Shown: in pieces, positions 15,204 to 22,958 of the stretch
How positions within the stretch are numbered: the stretch's first letter is position 1
Layout: every line of letters begins with the position of its first letter
Source of the DNA: Allobosea sp.
GTDB lineage: Bacteria > Pseudomonadota > Alphaproteobacteria > Rhizobiales > Beijerinckiaceae
Direction of reading: 5' to 3'
NCBI RefSeq assembly: GCF_017308075.1
Contig: NZ_JAFKFX010000054.1
Location: 1 to 42,929 of the forward strand
DNA: 42,929 bases
Notes under the pieces: model-generated
Database searches by the model: none
What the model saw: the letters and a program-made list of their open reading frames with translations, nothing else
What the model was told of the DNA's origin: nothing
Made by a program: the position numbers and the translations under genes

Positions 15204-16097
15204 ATGCGCGAAGCCAATCTGACGCTGATCCAGACCTTCTTCATCGTCGCACGCGACGGCTCCTATTCGGCCGCAGCGCGCAAGCTGGGGATGAGCTACC
15301 AGTCGGCCGCGAACCATGTCCGCCGGCTCGAACAGGTGCTCGAGGAGCGCCTCGTCCTCTCCGAGCAGGGCGCCAAGACGGTGACGCTGACGCCGCGCGG
15401 GCGCAGCCTCTACAAGCTGCTGCTGCCGGAGCTCGACACGGTGCTGGCGAGGCTCGACCGCACGCTCGACAAGGAGCGGCCGGTGCTGCGCATCGGCCTG
15501 CCGCAGGCGATCTTCTACTATCTGCTGCCGCCGATCCTGGCGCGCTTCCGCGAGCTCTTCCCGCAGGTCGAAATCCTCGCATATGAGCGCGACACCTCCC
15601 TGCCCGAGATGATCAAGGATGGCAGCCTCGATCTGTGCATCACCGAACGCTACTTCGGCGACCCGAACGTGCCGCAGCATCTGGTCTGCACCTATCGGCC
15701 GGCGCTGGTCTTCCCGACCGCCTGGGGCGCGGCGCCGGCGCCGGGCGCGATCCGGGAATGGGCGCAAGGGCGCCCCTTCGTGACCTATGAGCCCGGTCAG
15801 CTGCTGCGCAACCTCGCCATCGACTACCTGCGCCCCGACGGCTCGGAGATGGAGATCGCGATCTCGACCTCCGGCAGCTCGAGCGTGAAGCGCTGCGTCG
15901 AGGCAGGGATCGGCTTCGCGATCATTCCCGCCTGGTGCCTGGATGGCAGCGAGACCAGCATTGCCGGACTCGAGATCGCCGAGCTGCCGGAGATCCCGAT
16001 CTATTTCGGCGAGGCGAGCTTCCTCGCCCGCAACCCTTATGTCGTGACGCTGCGCCAGCTCTGCGGCAACCTGATGCAGACGGCGCCGGCCCCGTAG
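15204..16097 (+). CDS. LysR-family transcriptional regulator
   Basis: 297-residue LysR-type regulator. The helix-turn-helix is in residues 6-60 (FIVARDGSYSAAARKLGMSY, then VRRLEQVLEERLV); the effector domain starts near residue 92 (LRIGLPQAIFYYLLPP). It is divergent from the ten-gene amino acid operon and so is its likely regulator. ATG 15204 is taken because the HTH would sit at the usual N-terminal distance; longer frames to 15042 run into the oxidoreductase start. The HTH recognition helix reads QSAANHVRRLE, less usual than the common PALS form. Confidence 0.9.
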   Translation: MREANLTLIQTFFIVARDGSYSAAARKLGMSYQSAANHVRRLEQVLEERLVLSEQGAKTVTLTPRGRSLYKLLLPELDTVLARLDRTLDKERPVLRIGLPQAIFYYLLPPILARFRELFPQVEILAYERDTSLPEMIKDGSLDLCITERYFGDPNVPQHLVCTYRPALVFPTAWGAAPAPGAIREWAQGRPFVTYEPGQLLRNLAIDYLRPDGSEMEIAISTSGSSSVKRCVEAGIGFAIIPAWCLDGSETSIAGLEIAELPEIPIYFGEASFLARNPYVVTLRQLCGNLMQTAPAP

Positions 16098-16148
16098 GCT
16101 CCAGCCGCTTGACGCCGTTCCTCGCCGATCTATGGTCTGGCCCGATCA

Positions 16149-16331
16149 TGGTTCTCCAGGCGTCACGGCCTGGAGCTAAGAGGGAATTCGGTGAGGCGCG
16201 CAGCGCCAAGGCCGAGGCTGCCCCCGCAACTGTAAGCGGCGAGCTCTCCACCCATCGTCCACTGGCGCTCGCGCGCCGGGAAGGCCGGGCGGAACCAGCA
16301 TCGACCCGCGAGCCAGGAGACCTGCCCTGAT
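16149..16331 (+). ncRNA. Cobalamin (B12) riboswitch
   Basis: All conserved blocks of the adenosylcobalamin aptamer are present in order: TAAGAGGGAATTCGGTG at 16177-16193, GGCTGCCCCCGCAACTGTAAG from 16216, CCACTGG near 16258, GGGAAGG near 16278, and the B12 box AGCCAGGAGACCTGCC ending at 16325. It lies upstream of the metal-type ABC importer (first gene at 16619). Binding of cobalamin normally lowers expression of uptake or synthesis genes. The expression platform is not clear; two hairpins follow (16381-16398 and 16470-16482). Confidence 0.95.
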
Positions 16332-16469
16332 CGTCGGAAAGGTCTTTCGGGCGGGGTGCTCCGGAGGGTTGCTGGCAGGCGCGGGACGAGGATCCCGCCG
16401 CTCCGTCGCAATCGCCTGCTTCCCGCCTTCATCTCGGGGAGCGATGAATCCAGATGCCCATCTCCAACA

Positions 16470-16487
16470 GCGCCGCCGGCGCCTTTT
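16470..16487 (+). terminator. Possible Rho-independent terminator downstream of the riboswitch
   Basis: GCGCC/GGCGC 5-bp stem with a 3-base loop, followed by CTTTT. It sits between the riboswitch and the Zur-like palindrome, where a B12-controlled terminator would be useful. The stem is short for a strong terminator, so the call is tentative. Confidence 0.35.
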
Positions 16488-16531
16488 CCCGCGCCAGCTT
16501 GACAGGCCACGGCGCAGGCCTCTATCGGTTT

Positions 16532-16546
16532 TGTTATAATATTACA
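16532..16546. promoter_or_regulatory. Zur-box-like palindrome
   Basis: TGTTATAATATTACA is a 15-bp palindrome with 7-base half-sites and one mismatched pair. It closely matches the known proteobacterial Zur operator core (TGTTATANTATAACA). It lies 73 bases before the binding-protein start and just downstream of TTGACA (16499-16504) with a weak TCTATC at a 16-base spacing, which would place the box over the start site. It is a sharp AT island in GC-rich DNA. Repression by zinc-loaded Zur is inferred. Confidence 0.6.
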
Positions 16547-16618
16547 TATCAACCTACGCCGCACTTGGCGGGCTCACTCCCCGGCGCCGCCCGCTCTCTC
16601 CTGCCTTCGAAGGGTCCC

Positions 16619-17644
16619 ATGCGCGCCGTCCAGCGTTTCCGCCTCCCGCTCGCCCTGGCCGCCGGCCTGTGTCTCGCCACGGCCGCACAGGCGGCACCGA
16701 CGCAGTACCCGCTGACGCTGGAGAACTGCAGGGAGACCATCACCTTCAGCCAGGCGCCGAAGCGTGTGGTCGCCGTCGGCCAGACGCAGACCGAAATCCT
16801 CTATGCGCTCGGCCTCGGCGATCGCGTCGTCGGCACCGCCGTCTGGTTCAGCCCGGTCGCCAAGCCCTATGAGGCGGTGAATGCCAAGGTGAAGCGGCTC
16901 GCCGACAATGATCCGAGCTTCGAGGCGGTCGTCGCGCAGGAACCCGATCTCGTCACCGCGATGTTCGAATGGCATATCGGGCCGAACGGCATCGTCGGGA
17001 AGCGCGACCAGTTCGCCAAGGTCAAGGTACCAACCTATGTTTCCCCGACCGACTGCGTCGGCAAGGACAATTCCGGCCCCGGCGACGGCGTGCGGACCAA
17101 GATGTTCTCGATGGAGCTGGTCTACCAGAACATCCGCGAATTCGGCCAGATCTTCGACGTTTCCGACCGCGCCGAGGTCCTGATCGCCGAGCTGAAGGCA
17201 CGCGAGGAGAAGGCGGTCCAGTCGGTCGCCGGACTGAAGGCGCGCGACGTGCCGGTCGCCGTCTGGTTCTCCAGCAAGGACATCAAGGGCGACGCCTTCA
17301 TCGCAGGCAAGAACGGCGTGCCGGCCTATATCCTCTCGAAGCTCGGCGCCCGCAACGTCATCACCACCAATGAGGAATGGCCGCTGGTCGGCTGGGAGAG
17401 CATCGCCGCCGCGAACCCTGCGGTGATCGTCGTGGTCAGGATGGATCGCCGGCGCTTTCCCGCCGACGATGTCGATCTCAAGCTCAACTTCCTCAAGACC
17501 GACCCGGTGGCGAGCAAGCTCGACGCGGTCAAGCAGGACAGGATCGTGGTGATGGATGTCGGCGCGACGCGCGCCGGGCTCGACACCGTCGACGGGATCG
17601 AGGCGCTGGCACGCGGCATCGAGCGCTTCGGCCTGGCGCGGTGA
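16619..17644 (+). CDS. ABC transporter substrate-binding protein, FhuD/BtuF-like (metal chelate or corrinoid)
   Basis: 341-residue periplasmic helical-backbone receptor. The signal peptide ends at about AQA-AP (residue 25). Family features: PKRVVAVGQTQTEILYALGLGDRVVGT and the C-terminal half with LVGWESIAAANPAVIVVV. No histidine cluster points to free zinc, so a chelate is more likely. ATG 16619 has AAGGG in front; the frame open from 16454 would bury the signal peptide. It is the first gene of an importer operon controlled by a cobalamin riboswitch and a Zur-like box. Corrinoid, cobalt chelate, zinc chelate and siderophore are all possible. Confidence 0.88.
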   Translation: MRAVQRFRLPLALAAGLCLATAAQAAPTQYPLTLENCRETITFSQAPKRVVAVGQTQTEILYALGLGDRVVGTAVWFSPVAKPYEAVNAKVKRLADNDPSFEAVVAQEPDLVTAMFEWHIGPNGIVGKRDQFAKVKVPTYVSPTDCVGKDNSGPGDGVRTKMFSMELVYQNIREFGQIFDVSDRAEVLIAELKAREEKAVQSVAGLKARDVPVAVWFSSKDIKGDAFIAGKNGVPAYILSKLGARNVITTNEEWPLVGWESIAAANPAVIVVVRMDRRRFPADDVDLKLNFLKTDPVASKLDAVKQDRIVVMDVGATRAGLDTVDGIEALARGIERFGLAR

Positions 17645-18678
17645 GCCACCACCCCGTCCAGCCGAACTGGCCAGCGCGGATCGGCATCGCGGTCGCGGCG
17701 CTGGCCGCGCCGGTCTTCGCCATCGCCCTTGCGGTGACGATCGGAGAGATGCGGATTCCGCTGGCGACCGCCTTCCAGGCGCTCGGCAACGGCTTGTTTG
17801 ATCTGGGCTACCCTGTCAGCGCCATCCAGCAGGGCGTGATCTTCGACTACCGGCTGAGCCGGGCGCTGCTGGCGGGGCTGTGCGGCGGGGCACTGGCGCT
17901 GTCGGGCGCAATCCTGCAGGCGCTGCTGCGCAACCCGCTGGCCGAGCCCTATATTCTCGGCATCTCGGCCGGCGCCTCGACGGGCGCCGTGGCAGTGATG
18001 ATCCTCGGCTTCGGCGGGGCGGCGCTGACCGTCTCCGGCGGCGCCTTTCTCGGCTCGGTCGCGGCCCTGCTGATCGTCGCGCTGCTGGCCGCCGGCGCCG
18101 GCGGGGCGAGCGACCGCGTCATCCTCGCCGGGGTCGCCGGCTCCCAGCTCTTCAACGCCGCCACGGCGACGATCGTCACGACGCTCGCCAGCGCCGAGCA
18201 GGCGCGCGGCGTGATGTTCTGGCTGCTCGGCAATTTCGGCGGCGTGCGCTGGCCGGACGTCTTCGTCGCGACACCGGTCGCGCTCGCCGGCTTCGCGATC
18301 TGCATGCTGCACGCCAAGGCGCTCGACGCCTTCGCCTTCGGCGCGGACGCCGCCGCCTCGCTCGGCGTCGCGGTGACGCGCGTGCGCGTCGTCCTCTTCG
18401 CGGTGACCGCGGTGATGACCGCGACCATGGTCAGCATCGTCGGCACGATCGGCTTCGTCGGCCTCGTCATCCCGCATGCCGCCCGCTTCCTGGTCGGCCC
18501 CGGCCATGCCCGGTTGCTGCCGGTCTGCCTCGTCATCGGCGCGATCTTCATGATCCTGGCCGACATCCTCTCGCGCATCCTGGTACCGCAGCAGATCCTG
18601 CCGATCGGCGTCGTCACCGCCCTGGTCGGCGCACCGGCCTTCGCCATCATCCTCTATCGCGCCAGGCGGCCGGCATGA
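17641..18678 (+). CDS. FecCD-family ABC transporter permease
   Basis: 345-residue membrane permease with about ten membrane helices, typical of BtuC/FhuB/FecCD importers. Diagnostic motifs: RLSRALLAGLCGGALALSGA, RNPLAEPYILGISAGAS and GTIGFVGLVIPHAAR. The GTG start at 17641 overlaps the binding-protein stop (GTGA), and the stop overlaps the ATPase start (ATGA), so translation is coupled. The frame runs farther upstream to 17377 inside the binding-protein gene, but that part shows no family match. A homodimer would form the channel. Confidence 0.94.
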   Translation: MSHHPVQPNWPARIGIAVAALAAPVFAIALAVTIGEMRIPLATAFQALGNGLFDLGYPVSAIQQGVIFDYRLSRALLAGLCGGALALSGAILQALLRNPLAEPYILGISAGASTGAVAVMILGFGGAALTVSGGAFLGSVAALLIVALLAAGAGGASDRVILAGVAGSQLFNAATATIVTTLASAEQARGVMFWLLGNFGGVRWPDVFVATPVALAGFAICMLHAKALDAFAFGADAAASLGVAVTRVRVVLFAVTAVMTATMVSIVGTIGFVGLVIPHAARFLVGPGHARLLPVCLVIGAIFMILADILSRILVPQQILPIGVVTALVGAPAFAIILYRARRPA

Positions 18679-19463
18679 CGCTCTCGGCGCGTGACGTTTT
18701 CTGGGGCACCTCCGGGCGCATGATCGTCGACGGCGTGACGCTCGAAGCCGCGCCCGGCAAGATCCTCGGCCTGATCGGGCCGAACGGCTCCGGCAAGTCG
18801 AGCCTGCTGCGGCTGCTCTGCCGACTGCGCAATGTCTCGTCCGGCGTGGTCGAGCTCGATGGCCGCGATATCGGCCAGGTGTCGCGGCGCGAGCTCGCCC
18901 GCCGCCTCGCCTTCGTCGAACAGCAGGCGACGACCGAGATCCAGCTCTGCGTCTGCGACGTCGTCCGCCTCGGCCGCACCCCGCATCGCAGCGCCCTCGC
19001 CTCCTGGAGCGCGGCCGACGAGCAGGCAGTCGACGCGGCGCTGGCTCGGGTCGGCATGAGCGAACGGCACGACCAGCTCTGGCACACGCTCTCGGGCGGC
19101 GAGCGCCAGCGCGTGCATATCGCGCGGGCTTTGGCGCAGACCCCGAGCGAGCTCATCCTCGACGAGCCGACCAATCATCTCGACATCCAGCACCAGCTCT
19201 CGATTCTGACGCTGGTCCGCCGGCTCGGCGTGACCTGCATCGTCGCCCTGCACGATCTCAACCTCGCGGCGCTGTTCTGCGACGAGATCGCTCTGCTGCA
19301 CGAAGGCCGGCTGGTCGCCTCCGGCACGCCCGAGACCGTGCTGACCGAGGAGACGATCCGGCGGGTCTTCGGCGTCGCGGTCAGGATCGGCGCCACCGCT
19401 TCCGGCCGGCGCCATATCGAATACCTCGTCGACCCCGACTGCTATGGAGAGGCCGCGCCATGA
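18675..19463 (+). CDS. ABC transporter ATP-binding protein (FecE/BtuD/FhuC type)
   Basis: 262-residue ATPase. Walker A GPNGSGKS at 35-42, Q-loop FVEQQATTE, signature LSGGERQRVHIARAL, Walker B ELILDEPTNHLD, switch histidine ALHDLNLAA. The LDEPTNHLDI and HDLNLA motifs are typical of siderophore and B12 importers. It overlaps the permease and the methyltransferase by 4 bases on each side, so the four genes form one tight operon. Confidence 0.95.
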   Translation: MTLSARDVFWGTSGRMIVDGVTLEAAPGKILGLIGPNGSGKSSLLRLLCRLRNVSSGVVELDGRDIGQVSRRELARRLAFVEQQATTEIQLCVCDVVRLGRTPHRSALASWSAADEQAVDAALARVGMSERHDQLWHTLSGGERQRVHIARALAQTPSELILDEPTNHLDIQHQLSILTLVRRLGVTCIVALHDLNLAALFCDEIALLHEGRLVASGTPETVLTEETIRRVFGVAVRIGATASGRRHIEYLVDPDCYGEAAP

Positions 19464-20116
19464 CCGCTTCCGACGTGCAACATGCCGTGACCGGTTACTG
19501 GACCGCGCGCGCGCCGAAATTCGACGGCGTCGCCTCGCATGTCGCCCAGTCCGCGATCTGGCAGGAGGTCCTGGAAGCGGCCTTCGCCGCCAAGCAGCCG
19601 CTCGACGTCGTCGATCTCGGCACCGGCACGGGCGCCTGCGCGCTGGTCGCGGCCTCGCTTGGCCATCGCGTGCGTGCCTATGACGGTGCGGAGGGCATGC
19701 TCGCCGTGGCGCGGGCCGCCGCGGAAGCACAGGGCCTCGCCGTCGACTTCATCGCCGAGACGCTGCAGGATGCCGGCATCACGCGGGGCTCGGCCGATAT
19801 CGTAACGCTGCGCAATGTGCTGTGGACGCTGGAGCAGCCGATGGCGGCGCTGCGCAAGGCTCGCGACATCCTGCGCCCGGGCGGACGGATCGTCATCTCC
19901 GATGGACTCTGGTCGGTCGCGCCGCAATACCGCTCGACCTATCCGACCGATGTCGCCGCCCGCCTGCCGCTGCATGACGGGCTGACCGAGGACAAGGCCC
20001 GGCAGATGCTGGACGAGGCCGGTTTCGGGCCGGCCACGTCCTGGCAGCACCTGTTCCCGGCCTCGCCCTATCCGGGCGACGTGCCGATGTTCGTGCTCTC
20101 GGCCGTCCGGGCCTGA
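19460..20116 (+). CDS. Class I SAM-dependent methyltransferase
   Basis: 218 residues with a Rossmann SAM-binding domain: motif I VVDLGTGTGACAL at 50-62, motif II-type acidic residue in VRAYDGAEGML, and motif post-I ADIVTLRNVLWTL. Family members methylate small molecules; UbiE-like and arsenite-like enzymes are similar. It is the last gene of the metal-importer operon, coupled by ATGA. It might modify an imported chelator or a corrinoid-related compound, but no substrate can be assigned. It converges on the dioxygenase gene at 20136 with 19 bases between. Confidence 0.88.
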   Translation: MTASDVQHAVTGYWTARAPKFDGVASHVAQSAIWQEVLEAAFAAKQPLDVVDLGTGTGACALVAASLGHRVRAYDGAEGMLAVARAAAEAQGLAVDFIAETLQDAGITRGSADIVTLRNVLWTLEQPMAALRKARDILRPGGRIVISDGLWSVAPQYRSTYPTDVAARLPLHDGLTEDKARQMLDEAGFGPATSWQHLFPASPYPGDVPMFVLSAVRA

Positions 20117-20135: not shown

Positions 20136-21101
20136 TCAGTGGCCGGCGTTCGGGACCGGCGGCGTGCCGTGGGTGTGAAAACTCTCGATCGTCTTCAGCC
20201 CCCAGGCCTGGCCCTTCTTCCGCTCCTCCTCCGTCCAGGTGACGGTCTGCCAGTCCGGATCGAGGATCAGGCGCGCGCCGGCATTGGCGATCTCGACGCG
20301 GTTGCCGGCAGGTTCGTAGACATAGAGGAAGAAGGTCTGCTGCACCGCGTGCTTGTGCGGGCCTGTCTCGATGTAGACGCCGTTCTCGAGGAAGATGTCG
20401 GCGGCCTCCAGTACATGCTCGCGCTGGTCGACGGCATAGGTGACGTGGTGGAAACGTCCCAGGCTGCCGGTATGGTCGCGGGTATAGGCGATGTCGTAGC
20501 TCTTGTTGTTGACGGTGAACCAGCAGCCGCCGACCTCGCCGGAATCGAGCACGATCTGCTCGGTGACGCGGCTGCCCAGCGCTTTCGGCAGGAAGTCGCG
20601 GATCGCCGCGACGTCGCGGGCGAGCAGGTTGAGATGGTCGAGCCGGCGCACCGCGCAGCCGCGGCCGTGATTGCGCTGCGGCTGGTTCTTCAGCGCCGGG
20701 CGCTCATGCGGCGGGGCGACATACTTGTTGGTGTCGAAATAGATCTCGAAGACATGATCGTCCGGGTCGCGGAAACGATAGGCCCGGCCATGCCCGAGAT
20801 CGCCATCCACCCAGCCGATACCGCACCCCATCGTCTCGATCGCCTCGACGCGGCGCAGCAGCGCCTGCTCGCTGGTGGCACGATAGGCGACATGGCCAAT
20901 GCCGGTGGTCTTCGCCGCCGTCAGCTTCAGCGTATGGAACTCGTAATCGTCCCAGGCGCGCAGGAAGACGCTGTCGCCCTCGCGCCCGCTCTCGGTCAGC
21001 CCGTAGACATTGACGAAGAAATCGAGGCTCTCGGCCGGCTTGTCGGTGAGAAGCTCGACATGCGCGAGATGGGCGATGTCGAAGCAGGGCTCGCTGCTCA
21101 T
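20136..21101 (-). CDS. Catechol 2,3-dioxygenase-like type I extradiol dioxygenase (VOC fold)
   Basis: 321-residue ring-cleaving dioxygenase with two vicinal-oxygen-chelate halves. Iron ligands are visible in the second half: H156 (RRLDHLNLL), H219 (GRFHHVTYAV) and E270 (NRVEIANAG). The length is typical of homoprotocatechuate/catechol 2,3-dioxygenases. ATG 21101 has GGAGG in front and overlaps the MetE-like stop; the longer frame is a shadow. It is the last gene of the aromatic-acid operon. It cleaves a catechol meta to a hydroxyl; the exact catechol is unknown. Protocatechuate- or gallate-type substrates would link to the lower-pathway genes. Confidence 0.9.
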   Translation of the reverse strand: MSSEPCFDIAHLAHVELLTDKPAESLDFFVNVYGLTESGREGDSVFLRAWDDYEFHTLKLTAAKTTGIGHVAYRATSEQALLRRVEAIETMGCGIGWVDGDLGHGRAYRFRDPDDHVFEIYFDTNKYVAPPHERPALKNQPQRNHGRGCAVRRLDHLNLLARDVAAIRDFLPKALGSRVTEQIVLDSGEVGGCWFTVNNKSYDIAYTRDHTGSLGRFHHVTYAVDQREHVLEAADIFLENGVYIETGPHKHAVQQTFFLYVYEPAGNRVEIANAGARLILDPDWQTVTWTEEERKKGQAWGLKTIESFHTHGTPPVPNAGH

Positions 21102-22207
21102 CCCCAGACCTCCCTGGCGACTTCGAGGATGCGCGAGAGCTTGGCCCATTGCTCGTCCTCGGCGAGGACATTGCCCTCCTCGGTCGAGGCGAAACCGCAT
21201 TGCGGCGACAGGCAGAGCTGCTCCAGCGGAGCGTATTTCGAGGCTTCTTCGATCCGGCGCTTGAGATTGTCCTTGCTCTCGATCTCCCCGAACTTCGAGG
21301 TGACGAGGCCGAGCACGACCTGCTTGTCGCCCCTCGGCAGGAAGCGCAGCGGCTCGAAGCCGCCGGAGCGGTCGTCGTCCCACTCCATGAAATAGCCGTC
21401 GACATCGATCTGGTTGAAGACCATGTCGGCCACCGGCTCATAGCCGCCCGAAGCGATGAAGGTCGACTTGAAGTTGCCGCGGCAGGTGTGGGTGGTGATC
21501 TGCATGTCGGCCGGCTTGGCCTTGAGCGCGGCGTTGAGCACGTCGCGGTAGATGAAGATCAGCCTGTCCGGATCGTCGCCGCGCTCGGCCAGCATCTTGC
21601 GCTGCTCGGGATCGCAGAAATAGGACAGGCTGGTATCGTCGAGCTGCAGATAGCGGCAGCCGGCATCGTAGAAGGCCTTGATCGCCTTGGCGTAGGCCTT
21701 GCCGAGATCGTCGTAGTAATCCTCCATCCTGAGATAGGCGCTCGGGTCGATCGCCTTCCGCCCGCCGCGATAATGCAGCATGGACGGGCTCGGGATCGTC
21801 ATCTTCGGCACGCGGCTGGTCACCGACGCAAGGAACTTGAAGTGGGCCAGATGCGGATGGTCGGCCGGGAAGTCGAGCTTGCCGGTGACGCGGATGCCGT
21901 GCCCCTTGGTGGCGACGCCCTTGAACTGGATTCCCGCATCGGTCTCGTAGGTCGTGACGCCGGTCAAGCCGTCGAGAAAGTCGAAATGCCAGAAGGCGCG
22001 GCGATATTCGCCATCTGTCACCGCCTGCAGGCCGATTTCCTCCTGCTTCCTGACGAGCTTCCTGATCTCCTCGTCCTCGATCGCGGTGAGATCGGCCTGG
22101 CTGATCTCGCCGGCCGCATGCCTGGCGCGGGCGTCCTTGACCGGCGCGCTGCGCAGCAGGCTGCCGACCACGTCGCCCCGGAAAGGCGGCTTCTTCCTCT
22201 GGGTCAT
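21098..22207 (-). CDS. MetE-like zinc methyltransferase (cobalamin-independent methionine synthase C-terminal family)
   Basis: 369 residues, corresponding to the catalytic C-terminal half of MetE. The zinc ligand set is intact: H240 and C242 (TTHTCRGN), E275 and C337 (SPQCGFAS), matching the H-x-C...E...C pattern of MetE. Members transfer a methyl group to a thiol, often to homocysteine. The N-terminal folate-binding half of MetE is absent. It lies inside an aromatic catabolic operon, which is odd for a methionine gene, so it may take a methyl group from a methoxylated aromatic or handle a related methyl donor (speculative). ATG 22207 has GGAGG seven bases upstream. Confidence 0.88.
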   Translation of the reverse strand: MTQRKKPPFRGDVVGSLLRSAPVKDARARHAAGEISQADLTAIEDEEIRKLVRKQEEIGLQAVTDGEYRRAFWHFDFLDGLTGVTTYETDAGIQFKGVATKGHGIRVTGKLDFPADHPHLAHFKFLASVTSRVPKMTIPSPSMLHYRGGRKAIDPSAYLRMEDYYDDLGKAYAKAIKAFYDAGCRYLQLDDTSLSYFCDPEQRKMLAERGDDPDRLIFIYRDVLNAALKAKPADMQITTHTCRGNFKSTFIASGGYEPVADMVFNQIDVDGYFMEWDDDRSGGFEPLRFLPRGDKQVVLGLVTSKFGEIESKDNLKRRIEEASKYAPLEQLCLSPQCGFASTEEGNVLAEDEQWAKLSRILEVAREVWG

Positions 22208-22232
22208 GACGTTTCCTCCCGGTTCTTGATGG

Positions 22233-22958
22233 TCATGCTGCGGCGGCGAGGCCGAGATGATGTTCGAGGCGCTCAGGCTCGGCGATGAGCGTGGCACTGC
22301 GTTCGGCCAGCACGACGCGGCCGCGTTCGAGCACGATGGCGTCGTCGGTCAATTCGAGGATTTTTCGCGCATGCTGCTCGATCACGATCGCGGAAAGCCC
22401 CTCCTCGCGGAACAGGCCCTTCAGCGCCTTGAGCAGTTCCTCAACGATGATCGGGGCGAGACCCTCGGTCGGCTCGTCGAGCAGCAGGAGCTTCGGATTG
22501 AGCATCAGGGCCCGGCCGATCGCCAGCATCTGCTGCTCGCCGCCGGAAAGCTGGTTGCCGAGATTGGCCTTGCGCTCCGCCAGCCGGGGAAACATGCGAA
22601 AGACGCGGGCCGCGTCCCACGGCCCCGGCAGCGCCACCGCAGTCAGGTTCTCCAGCACGGTCAAGGACTTGAAGATGTTGCGCTCTTGCGGCACCCAGCC
22701 GATTCCGGCATGGGCGCGCTGCTCGGGCGAGGCGGTGGAGAGGTCGCGATCGGCGAGCACGATCCGCCCGCCGCGCCGTCGCGTCACACCGATGATGCTG
22801 TTGACCAAAGTCGTCTTGCCGACGCCGTTGCGGCCGAGCAGCGCGAGCGAGCGCCCTTGGGCAAGGCTGAGGTCGATATCGAACAGCACCTGCGCCTCGC
22901 CATAGCCGGCGCTCAGTTTCTCGATCCTCAGGAGTTCAGTCGATGCTGCGTCAGACAT
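22233..22958 (-). CDS. livF: Branched-chain amino acid-type ABC transporter ATP-binding protein (LivF)
   Basis: 241-residue ATPase with Walker A GRNGVGKTT near 42-50, signature LSGGEQQMLAIGRAL, Walker B LLLLDEPTEGLAP and switch histidine VIEQHARKIL. The phrase EPTEGLAPIIVEEL is characteristic of LivF. The ATG at 22958 overlaps the LivG stop by 8 bases, so it is coupled; an in-frame GTG lies at 22970. With LivG, LivM, LivH and LivK it completes an importer of the hydrophobic amino acid/aromatic acid (HAAT) family. Confidence 0.95.
   Translation of the reverse strand: MSDAASTELLRIEKLSAGYGEAQVLFDIDLSLAQGRSLALLGRNGVGKTTLVNSIIGVTRRRGGRIVLADRDLSTASPEQRAHAGIGWVPQERNIFKSLTVLENLTAVALPGPWDAARVFRMFPRLAERKANLGNQLSGGEQQMLAIGRALMLNPKLLLLDEPTEGLAPIIVEELLKALKGLFREEGLSAIVIEQHARKILELTDDAIVLERGRVVLAERSATLIAEPERLEHHLGLAAAA

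Follow-up and report, generated by a model that had tools for sequence, protein, structure and literature searches.

Cobalamin riboswitches (RF00174) usually target cobalt transport and cobalamin genes, according to the available text of PMC7689651, and the Zur sites of Caulobacter (PMC4176598) and Paracoccus (PMC5387054) are documented by gel shifts in the accessible passages. In Pseudomonas aeruginosa, PA2911–PA2914 encode a Zur-controlled ABC importer resembling siderophore and B12 importers, and the data in the visible parts of PMC11481552 and PMC13083405 support import of pyochelin-cobalt and an easing of zinc starvation by cobalt. A riboswitch and a Zur box are each, alone, modules of a known kind. 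In the 42,929-nucleotide stretch of Allobosea sp. DNA analyzed here (contig NZ_JAFKFX010000054.1; referred to as the window), a riboswitch and then a Zur-type palindrome stood in series 5' of one operon for a binding protein, a FecCD permease, an ATPase and a methyltransferase (Table 1). The preliminary description of this DNA had proposed two inputs to the operon, B12 acting on an upstream transcript and zinc on an internal promoter, and our cross-species comparison indicated that this proposal is well supported. Its assignment of a FecCD-type importer also stood, with Peripla_BP_2, FecCD and ABC_tran domains matched along with that of a SAM methyltransferase. By eye, the binding protein had a signal-peptide-like N-terminus from ATG 16619.

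Table 1. Features of the importer locus in the window
Feature	Position	Strand	Remarks
Promoter P1 (TTGACG, 16 bp, TATGGT)	16109..16136	+	Sole sigma-70-like site found in a scan of 16090–16640
Cobalamin riboswitch aptamer, RF00174	16132..16343	+	119.7 bits, E 1.3e-29
Candidate anti-Shine-Dalgarno strand CGGGGTG	16352..16358	+	Could pair with CATCTCG, 16430–16436
Shine-Dalgarno/AUG element CATCTCGGGGAGCGATG	16430..16446	+	Near-invariant across loci
Putative N-terminal extension, in frame with the binding protein (ATG 16454 as long start)	16454..16618	+	Houses P2 and the Zur-type box
Promoter P2 (TTGACA, 17 bp, CTATCG)	16499..16527	+	TTGAC exactly 33 nt 5' of the box in 31 of 35 loci
Predicted Zur-type operator TGTTATAATATTACA	16532..16546	+	Overlaps the expected P2 start; 27.8 bits
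Substrate-binding protein (short start, ATG 16619)	16619..17644	+	PF01497 (Peripla_BP_2), 136.3 bits
FecCD-type permease	17641..18678	+	PF01032, 274.7 bits
ABC ATPase (ABC_tran)	18675..19463	+	PF00005, 112.4 bits
Class I SAM-dependent methyltransferase, last gene of the operon	19460..20116	+	PF08241, 65.1 bits

The full cobalamin aptamer of the preliminary description was borne out, although it began at 16132 and not at 16149; it covered positions 1–189 of the 189-position RF00174 model and scored above the gathering score of 31.5 bits. The importer was present in 35 of 61 genus genomes, the window's own included (79–100% identity), and all 35 orthologs had an RF00174 riboswitch preceded by a TTGAC. 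A terminator had been suggested at 16470–16487, with B12 controlling read-through. A terminator scan of 16090–16640 found none, a run of at least four T between riboswitch and box occurred in 4/35 loci, and the stem-like sequence with T-run of 16470–16487 was confined to one locus of the 35, that of the window's own species, being absent from the sister locus L048. What followed the aptamer instead was the near-invariant Shine-Dalgarno/AUG element CATCTCGGGGAGCGATG. With no conserved terminator found, read-through as the B12 mechanism is not supported; the near-invariant element points to translational control by the riboswitch. In an alignment test of the CGGGGTG strand against CATCTCG, which took in 31 of the 35 loci (in the other four the right-hand strand was not anchorable), 99% of cells were paired as against 43–68% when the strands were slid. 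No covariation was found among these 31 anchored loci, where both strands were nearly invariant and the test was uninformative; given this near-invariance, a pairing that hides the Shine-Dalgarno/AUG element is possible, not proven. The spacing of the element was unusual, with 2 nt to the first ATG and 11–12 nt to the next in-frame ATG. In the window and in L048, the first ATG after the Shine-Dalgarno sequence was out of frame and the in-frame ATG lay 10 nt further. The frame begun by this first ATG ended within the Zur-type box at both loci; in the window it runs for 31 codons from ATG 16444 to the stop at 16537–16539 and could encode a leader peptide.

The 15-bp Zur-like palindrome that had been noted was present and kept in all 35 genus orthologs. 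No other site in the 5.55-Mb genome matched TGTTATANTATNACA without a mismatch; the one-mismatch match lay 5' of a COG0523-type GTPase gene and one two-mismatch match directly 5' of a znuA-type gene. Allowing up to two mismatches, the genome held 11 strand-matches, compared with 4 for a reversed control pattern. These counts from the window's genome alone are not overwhelming, and it is conservation that, at the sequence level, settles that the palindrome is real. For scoring, a Zur matrix was built without any importer site. It combined five published Caulobacter sites with the best sites of the znuC, znuA and COG0523 leaders, taken from 30 genus loci per gene; these 90 sites comprised 18 different sequences, each of which entered once. 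The 35 orthologous boxes scored 17.0–27.8 bits, that of the window being at the upper end, and the commonest genus box, TGCAACATTGTTACA (16/35), scored 18.1 bits. On a first matrix, TGCAACATTGTTACA scored 17.9 bits, under the ranges of the best znuC-leader sites (20.4–26.5 bits, 30/30 fetched loci) and the best COG0523-leader sites (21.0–25.7 bits, 30/30 loci), ranges which come from a matrix trained on those very leaders. In the znuA leader segment, the best sites scored 14.1–23.6 bits. When 30 importer leaders were searched by themselves for palindromes, TGTAACAATGTTACA was the top motif; a de novo search confined to the znuC leaders was dominated by GC-rich palindromes and yielded TGTTATAATATAACA once COG0523 leaders were added. 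Two background estimates for the box scores were contaminated by Zur-type boxes of the background loci themselves and were not used; by these percentiles, 6/30 and 3/35 importer boxes passed the 99% line. Other fetched DNA (360,046 bases, not a clean background) contained 25 segments of at least 15 bits, three of them at loci that the box pattern itself had retrieved (L006, L007, and L010) and most others near riboswitches or zinc genes. The genome had a zur-like gene (L088:4952–5515), for which the best NCBIfam match was Zur (106.2 bits, under the cut-off of 167). From these sequence comparisons we infer that zinc-loaded Zur binds at the box. In the znu region (L087:1853–3838) there were two Zur-type boxes, one 5' of znuA and the other 5' of a small His-rich frame that precedes znuC.

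The TTGACA reported earlier was found at 16499–16504. In the window the −10 element occupied 16522–16527, and the box started 4 bp past it; a TATAAT inside the box was ruled out as the −10 partner of TTGACA, the two being 30 bp apart. Among the 31 loci with the −35 element at the fixed distance from the box, CTAT stood at 17 bp in 30. No P2 −35 element was found in L077, L080, and L081, and in L079 the sole candidate matched poorly and was spaced differently. A usable promoter consensus was sought in the visible text of PMC3616915, and none was present there.

As read from the alignments, the zinc promoter sits within a reading frame that runs on into the binding protein, a feature that the preliminary description had missed. 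In all 35 loci an in-frame ATG lay 75–99 nt 5' of the box, and no in-frame stop occurred up to the mature binding protein. The distance from the box to a fixed protein motif took eight values in the 35 loci, each of them divisible by three. Between the B12 box of the riboswitch and the in-frame ATG, 12 different lengths occurred, with remainders distributed 15/10/10. On a 31-tip tree, which leaves out L078–L081 (too short), at least seven length changes were needed for the former stretch and at least 18 for the latter. Since the box-to-protein lengths keep to multiples of three and the riboswitch-to-ATG lengths do not, the stretch carrying the zinc promoter appears to have been kept in frame, which is what translation of the riboswitch mRNA across this stretch would predict. 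Two transcripts with two start codons would follow, probably giving one mature protein. Across 18 loci, divergence at the three codon positions was 0.25, 0.32, and 0.36 in the extension and 0.25, 0.17, and 0.38 in the coding part after it; the signal was only weakly protein-like, and the amino acids were little constrained. GC-rich DNA, moreover, often contains open frames.

Outside the genus the two elements recurred together in more than one order; that the pairing is found elsewhere had likewise escaped the preliminary description. The order search matched 45/397 genomes and the class search 7/385, the window's own genome and genus included, and we examined 27 orthologs from outside the genus (48–70% identity; L095–L115 and L192–L197). 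A riboswitch was found in 25 of the 27, being missing in L113 and L115. Riboswitch and box occurred together in ten relatives, in two arrangements: the box (at least 15 bits) followed the riboswitch in L103, L192, L194, L195, and L196, with a small frame between the two in L103, and lay 5' of the riboswitch or at its start in L095, L096, L110, L111, and L193, the palindrome of L095 being the weakest of that set at 20.4 bits. L115 had a box without a riboswitch, and 16/27 relatives had no box of at least 15 bits. Six loci fetched from weaker matches of the order search (47% identity or less; L116–L121), which stand outside the count of 27, had no riboswitch.

Riboswitches were found in 59/61 genus genomes. 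Among the best 30 loci fetched (L017–L046), of which L041 is the importer itself, nine had a box, and in six (L020, L021, L029, L033, L035, and L036) riboswitch and box were followed by a frame with a similar start. At L201, the one scanned, this frame encoded a 252-amino-acid protein without a Pfam match; genes for a TonB receptor, a binding protein, and a FecCD permease came next. This second genus cluster with a riboswitch and then a Zur-type box spans L201:2321–7136, similar starts being seen in L020, L029, L033, L035, and L036. The box of L026 and L030 lay about 1.3 kb 5' of the riboswitch and may belong to another gene. At L204:8461–11179, with similar starts in L026 and L030, a riboswitch preceded a methyltransferase and a nickel-type SBP_bac_5 ABC importer; the best NCBIfam match of the SBP_bac_5 protein was a nickel binding protein, under the cut-off. 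Large- and small-chain ribonucleotide reductase genes also lay near cobalamin riboswitches (L199:4970–8196 and L201:8405–9649), and we take the enzyme type at both loci to be B12-independent.

Drawing on the computed aptamer, box, order, spacing, conservation, and frame, we consider it probable that the operon is served by a riboswitch mRNA from P1 and a nested, Zur-controlled P2, so that the importer is made when either B12 or zinc is low. P1 would give a long mRNA carrying the riboswitch, which with B12 bound would hide the Shine-Dalgarno/AUG element downstream; when B12 is scarce, translation from the upstream start would yield the binding protein in a long form, along with the rest of the operon. 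Zinc-loaded Zur on the operator over the P2 start point would block P2. When zinc is scarce, Zur would leave the box and P2 would give a shorter, riboswitch-free mRNA, translated from an internal start (ATG 16619 in the window). The long and short precursors would share the signal-peptide region and yield one mature binding protein. What we infer in this two-promoter model is that Zur binds, that the riboswitch acts on translation, that two starts are used, that the logic is OR, and that the mature protein is identical, as well as the substrate. Against the model stand the 4/35 loci without a good P2 −35 element and the presence in the genome of CbtA, a cobalt transporter. Also counting against it are the lower score of the commonest genus box, the out-of-frame first ATG of the window and L048, the weak codon-position signal, the lack of covariation in the anti-Shine-Dalgarno pairing, and the 16/27 relatives without a box.

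The logic would be OR unless Zur also blocks elongation from P1. With the same parts, Zur bound at the box, about 390 bp into the expected P1 transcript, could be a roadblock, and the B12 arm would then work only at low zinc. The five relatives with the box 5' of the riboswitch or at its start would give such AND logic directly; a P2 −35 element held at a fixed spacing in 31/35 loci would be pointless if the box were a roadblock only, and we regard AND logic in the genus as unlikely. A still less probable alternative is that the extension is not translated, the short start always being used and the multiples of three arising by chance. The weak codon-position signal and the unusual spacing of Shine-Dalgarno sequence and ATG agree with it. 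Against it, at least seven length changes that are all multiples of three would be expected about once in 2000 cases if lengths were free, odds which are weaker than that figure in that part of the box-to-protein stretch is signal peptide and coding anyway; the absence of stops in 35/35 loci and the failure of the riboswitch-to-ATG control segment to keep frame also argue for translation. That a different regulator binds the palindrome, or that it is an incidental AT-rich promoter element, seems highly improbable. Genus importer boxes do differ in detail from znu boxes (TGCAACATTGTTACA compared with CGTAACATTATATCA), but the window's own box is the sole perfect pattern match, the next matches include COG0523 and znuA leaders, and the boxes of L103, L115, L192, L194, L195, and L196 scored 22.3–25.1 bits on the Zur matrix.

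The substrate is the least sure part of the preferred two-promoter explanation. The binding protein matched the EitA model at 308.3 bits (cut-off 640) and the ATPase the EitC model at 328.6 bits (cut-off 485); the binding protein also matched an F420-0 NCBIfam model, under its cut-off. Conserved residues, examined in the 17 of 26 proteins recovered, included Trp, Arg, and Cys positions and gave no decision. Zinc-linked genes lay directly 5' of the importer in two relatives (znuA and COG0523 in L187, COG0523 in L191). A methyltransferase lay 3' of it in L199 and L182 by family scans, and in L183 and L187 by similar N-termini only. Elsewhere in the window's own genome, CbtA (cobalt transporter family) was encoded beside another riboswitch with a cobW-type gene after it, and for this reason the organism probably makes B12. 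On the basis of the zinc-linked neighbors, this context of CbtA and B12 synthesis, and the pyochelin-cobalt importer of P. aeruginosa, we tentatively favor a cobalt or cobalt/zinc chelate, which would serve B12 synthesis as well as the replacement of zinc, although the odds are somewhat against even this choice; a corrinoid ranks next. Under that second possibility, which we hold to be doubtful, the importer would be a BtuFCD for B12 or other corrinoids, induced by zinc starvation so as to favor B12-dependent over zinc-hungry enzymes. The riboswitch in 25/27 relatives outside the genus fits a B12 importer, as does a TonB receptor behind a riboswitch in the window's own genome (best NCBIfam match a B12 receptor, 262.8 bits against a cut-off of 599.7, the sequence ending at the edge of its stretch). 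The accessible text on Caulobacter reports a cobalamin-independent methionine synthase that is up in a zur mutant (PMC4176598), and that on Paracoccus a modest rise of predicted iron/B12 importers without zinc (PMC5387054). Also in favor is a single-domain MetE-like gene (cobalamin-independent methionine synthase catalytic domain; 21101–22297, reverse strand; NF005085, 579.4 bits, cut-off 313) 1 kb from the operon in the window. However, the MetE N-terminal domain (PF08267) had no match in the genome, and a zinc link in the form of MetE sparing was rejected on this ground, despite the single-domain gene nearby. The binding protein scored 29.6 bits against a BtuF cut-off of 234, a weak argument in that this BtuF model is enterobacterial, and it scored 308.3 bits with EitA; the two relatives with znuA or COG0523 neighbors likewise speak against a B12 importer.

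Joint control by B12 and zinc would bring together in one operon two nutrient signals usually treated separately, and would predict a substrate wanted in both shortages. Cobalt would fit, since it is the metal of B12 and since a Zur-controlled importer of P. aeruginosa is reported to take up chelated cobalt that eases zinc starvation (visible parts of PMC11481552 and PMC13083405). A B12 riboswitch and Zur might thus jointly govern a small chelate-importer regulon in alphaproteobacteria, in at least two arrangements; in the genus, the zinc promoter would be embedded in the riboswitch-controlled frame, each signal having its own mRNA and start codon for one mature protein, and shortage of B12 and of zinc would amount to one demand, probably for cobalt. 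We put forward this wider reading as a tentative one. If true, it would offer an example of a gene under riboswitch control whose reading frame harbors a promoter governed by a transcription factor.

A literature search covering titles and visible passages, with subscription papers mostly outside its scope, found no description of joint control by Zur and a cobalamin (B12) riboswitch. EitABC (NF052484/NF052485) provided the best family models for the binding protein and ATPase, and the putative F420-0 importer (TIGR03868/69/73) that for the permease, all under curated cut-offs and therefore not assigned. The Zur sites of Caulobacter and Paracoccus are of the same 15-bp palindrome type, GTTA-N5-TAAC, before zinc genes, COG0523 included in Paracoccus (accessible text of PMC4176598 and PMC5387054). 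The word riboswitch is absent from the Paracoccus text (PMC5387054), and Caulobacter znuGHI, unlike the importer here, is described as ABC-2 type in the available part of PMC4176598. PA2911–PA2914 includes its own TonB receptor, unlike the present operon, and the words riboswitch and methyltransferase are absent from the text of PMC11481552 that is accessible. The COG0523 family includes some members controlled by B12 riboswitches (CobW) and some preceded by Zur sites; in the visible passages of PMC2770081 the two controls act on different genes, whereas here they would act on one. Cobalamin riboswitches before transport genes likewise present a complete aptamer 5' of an importer (available text of PMC7689651); the locus described here differs in having a second, zinc-type promoter within the frame running into the importer. 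What appears to be new is a riboswitch and a Zur box placed in series and nested before one importer, an arrangement that, as judged by comparison of loci, recurs in other alphaproteobacteria.
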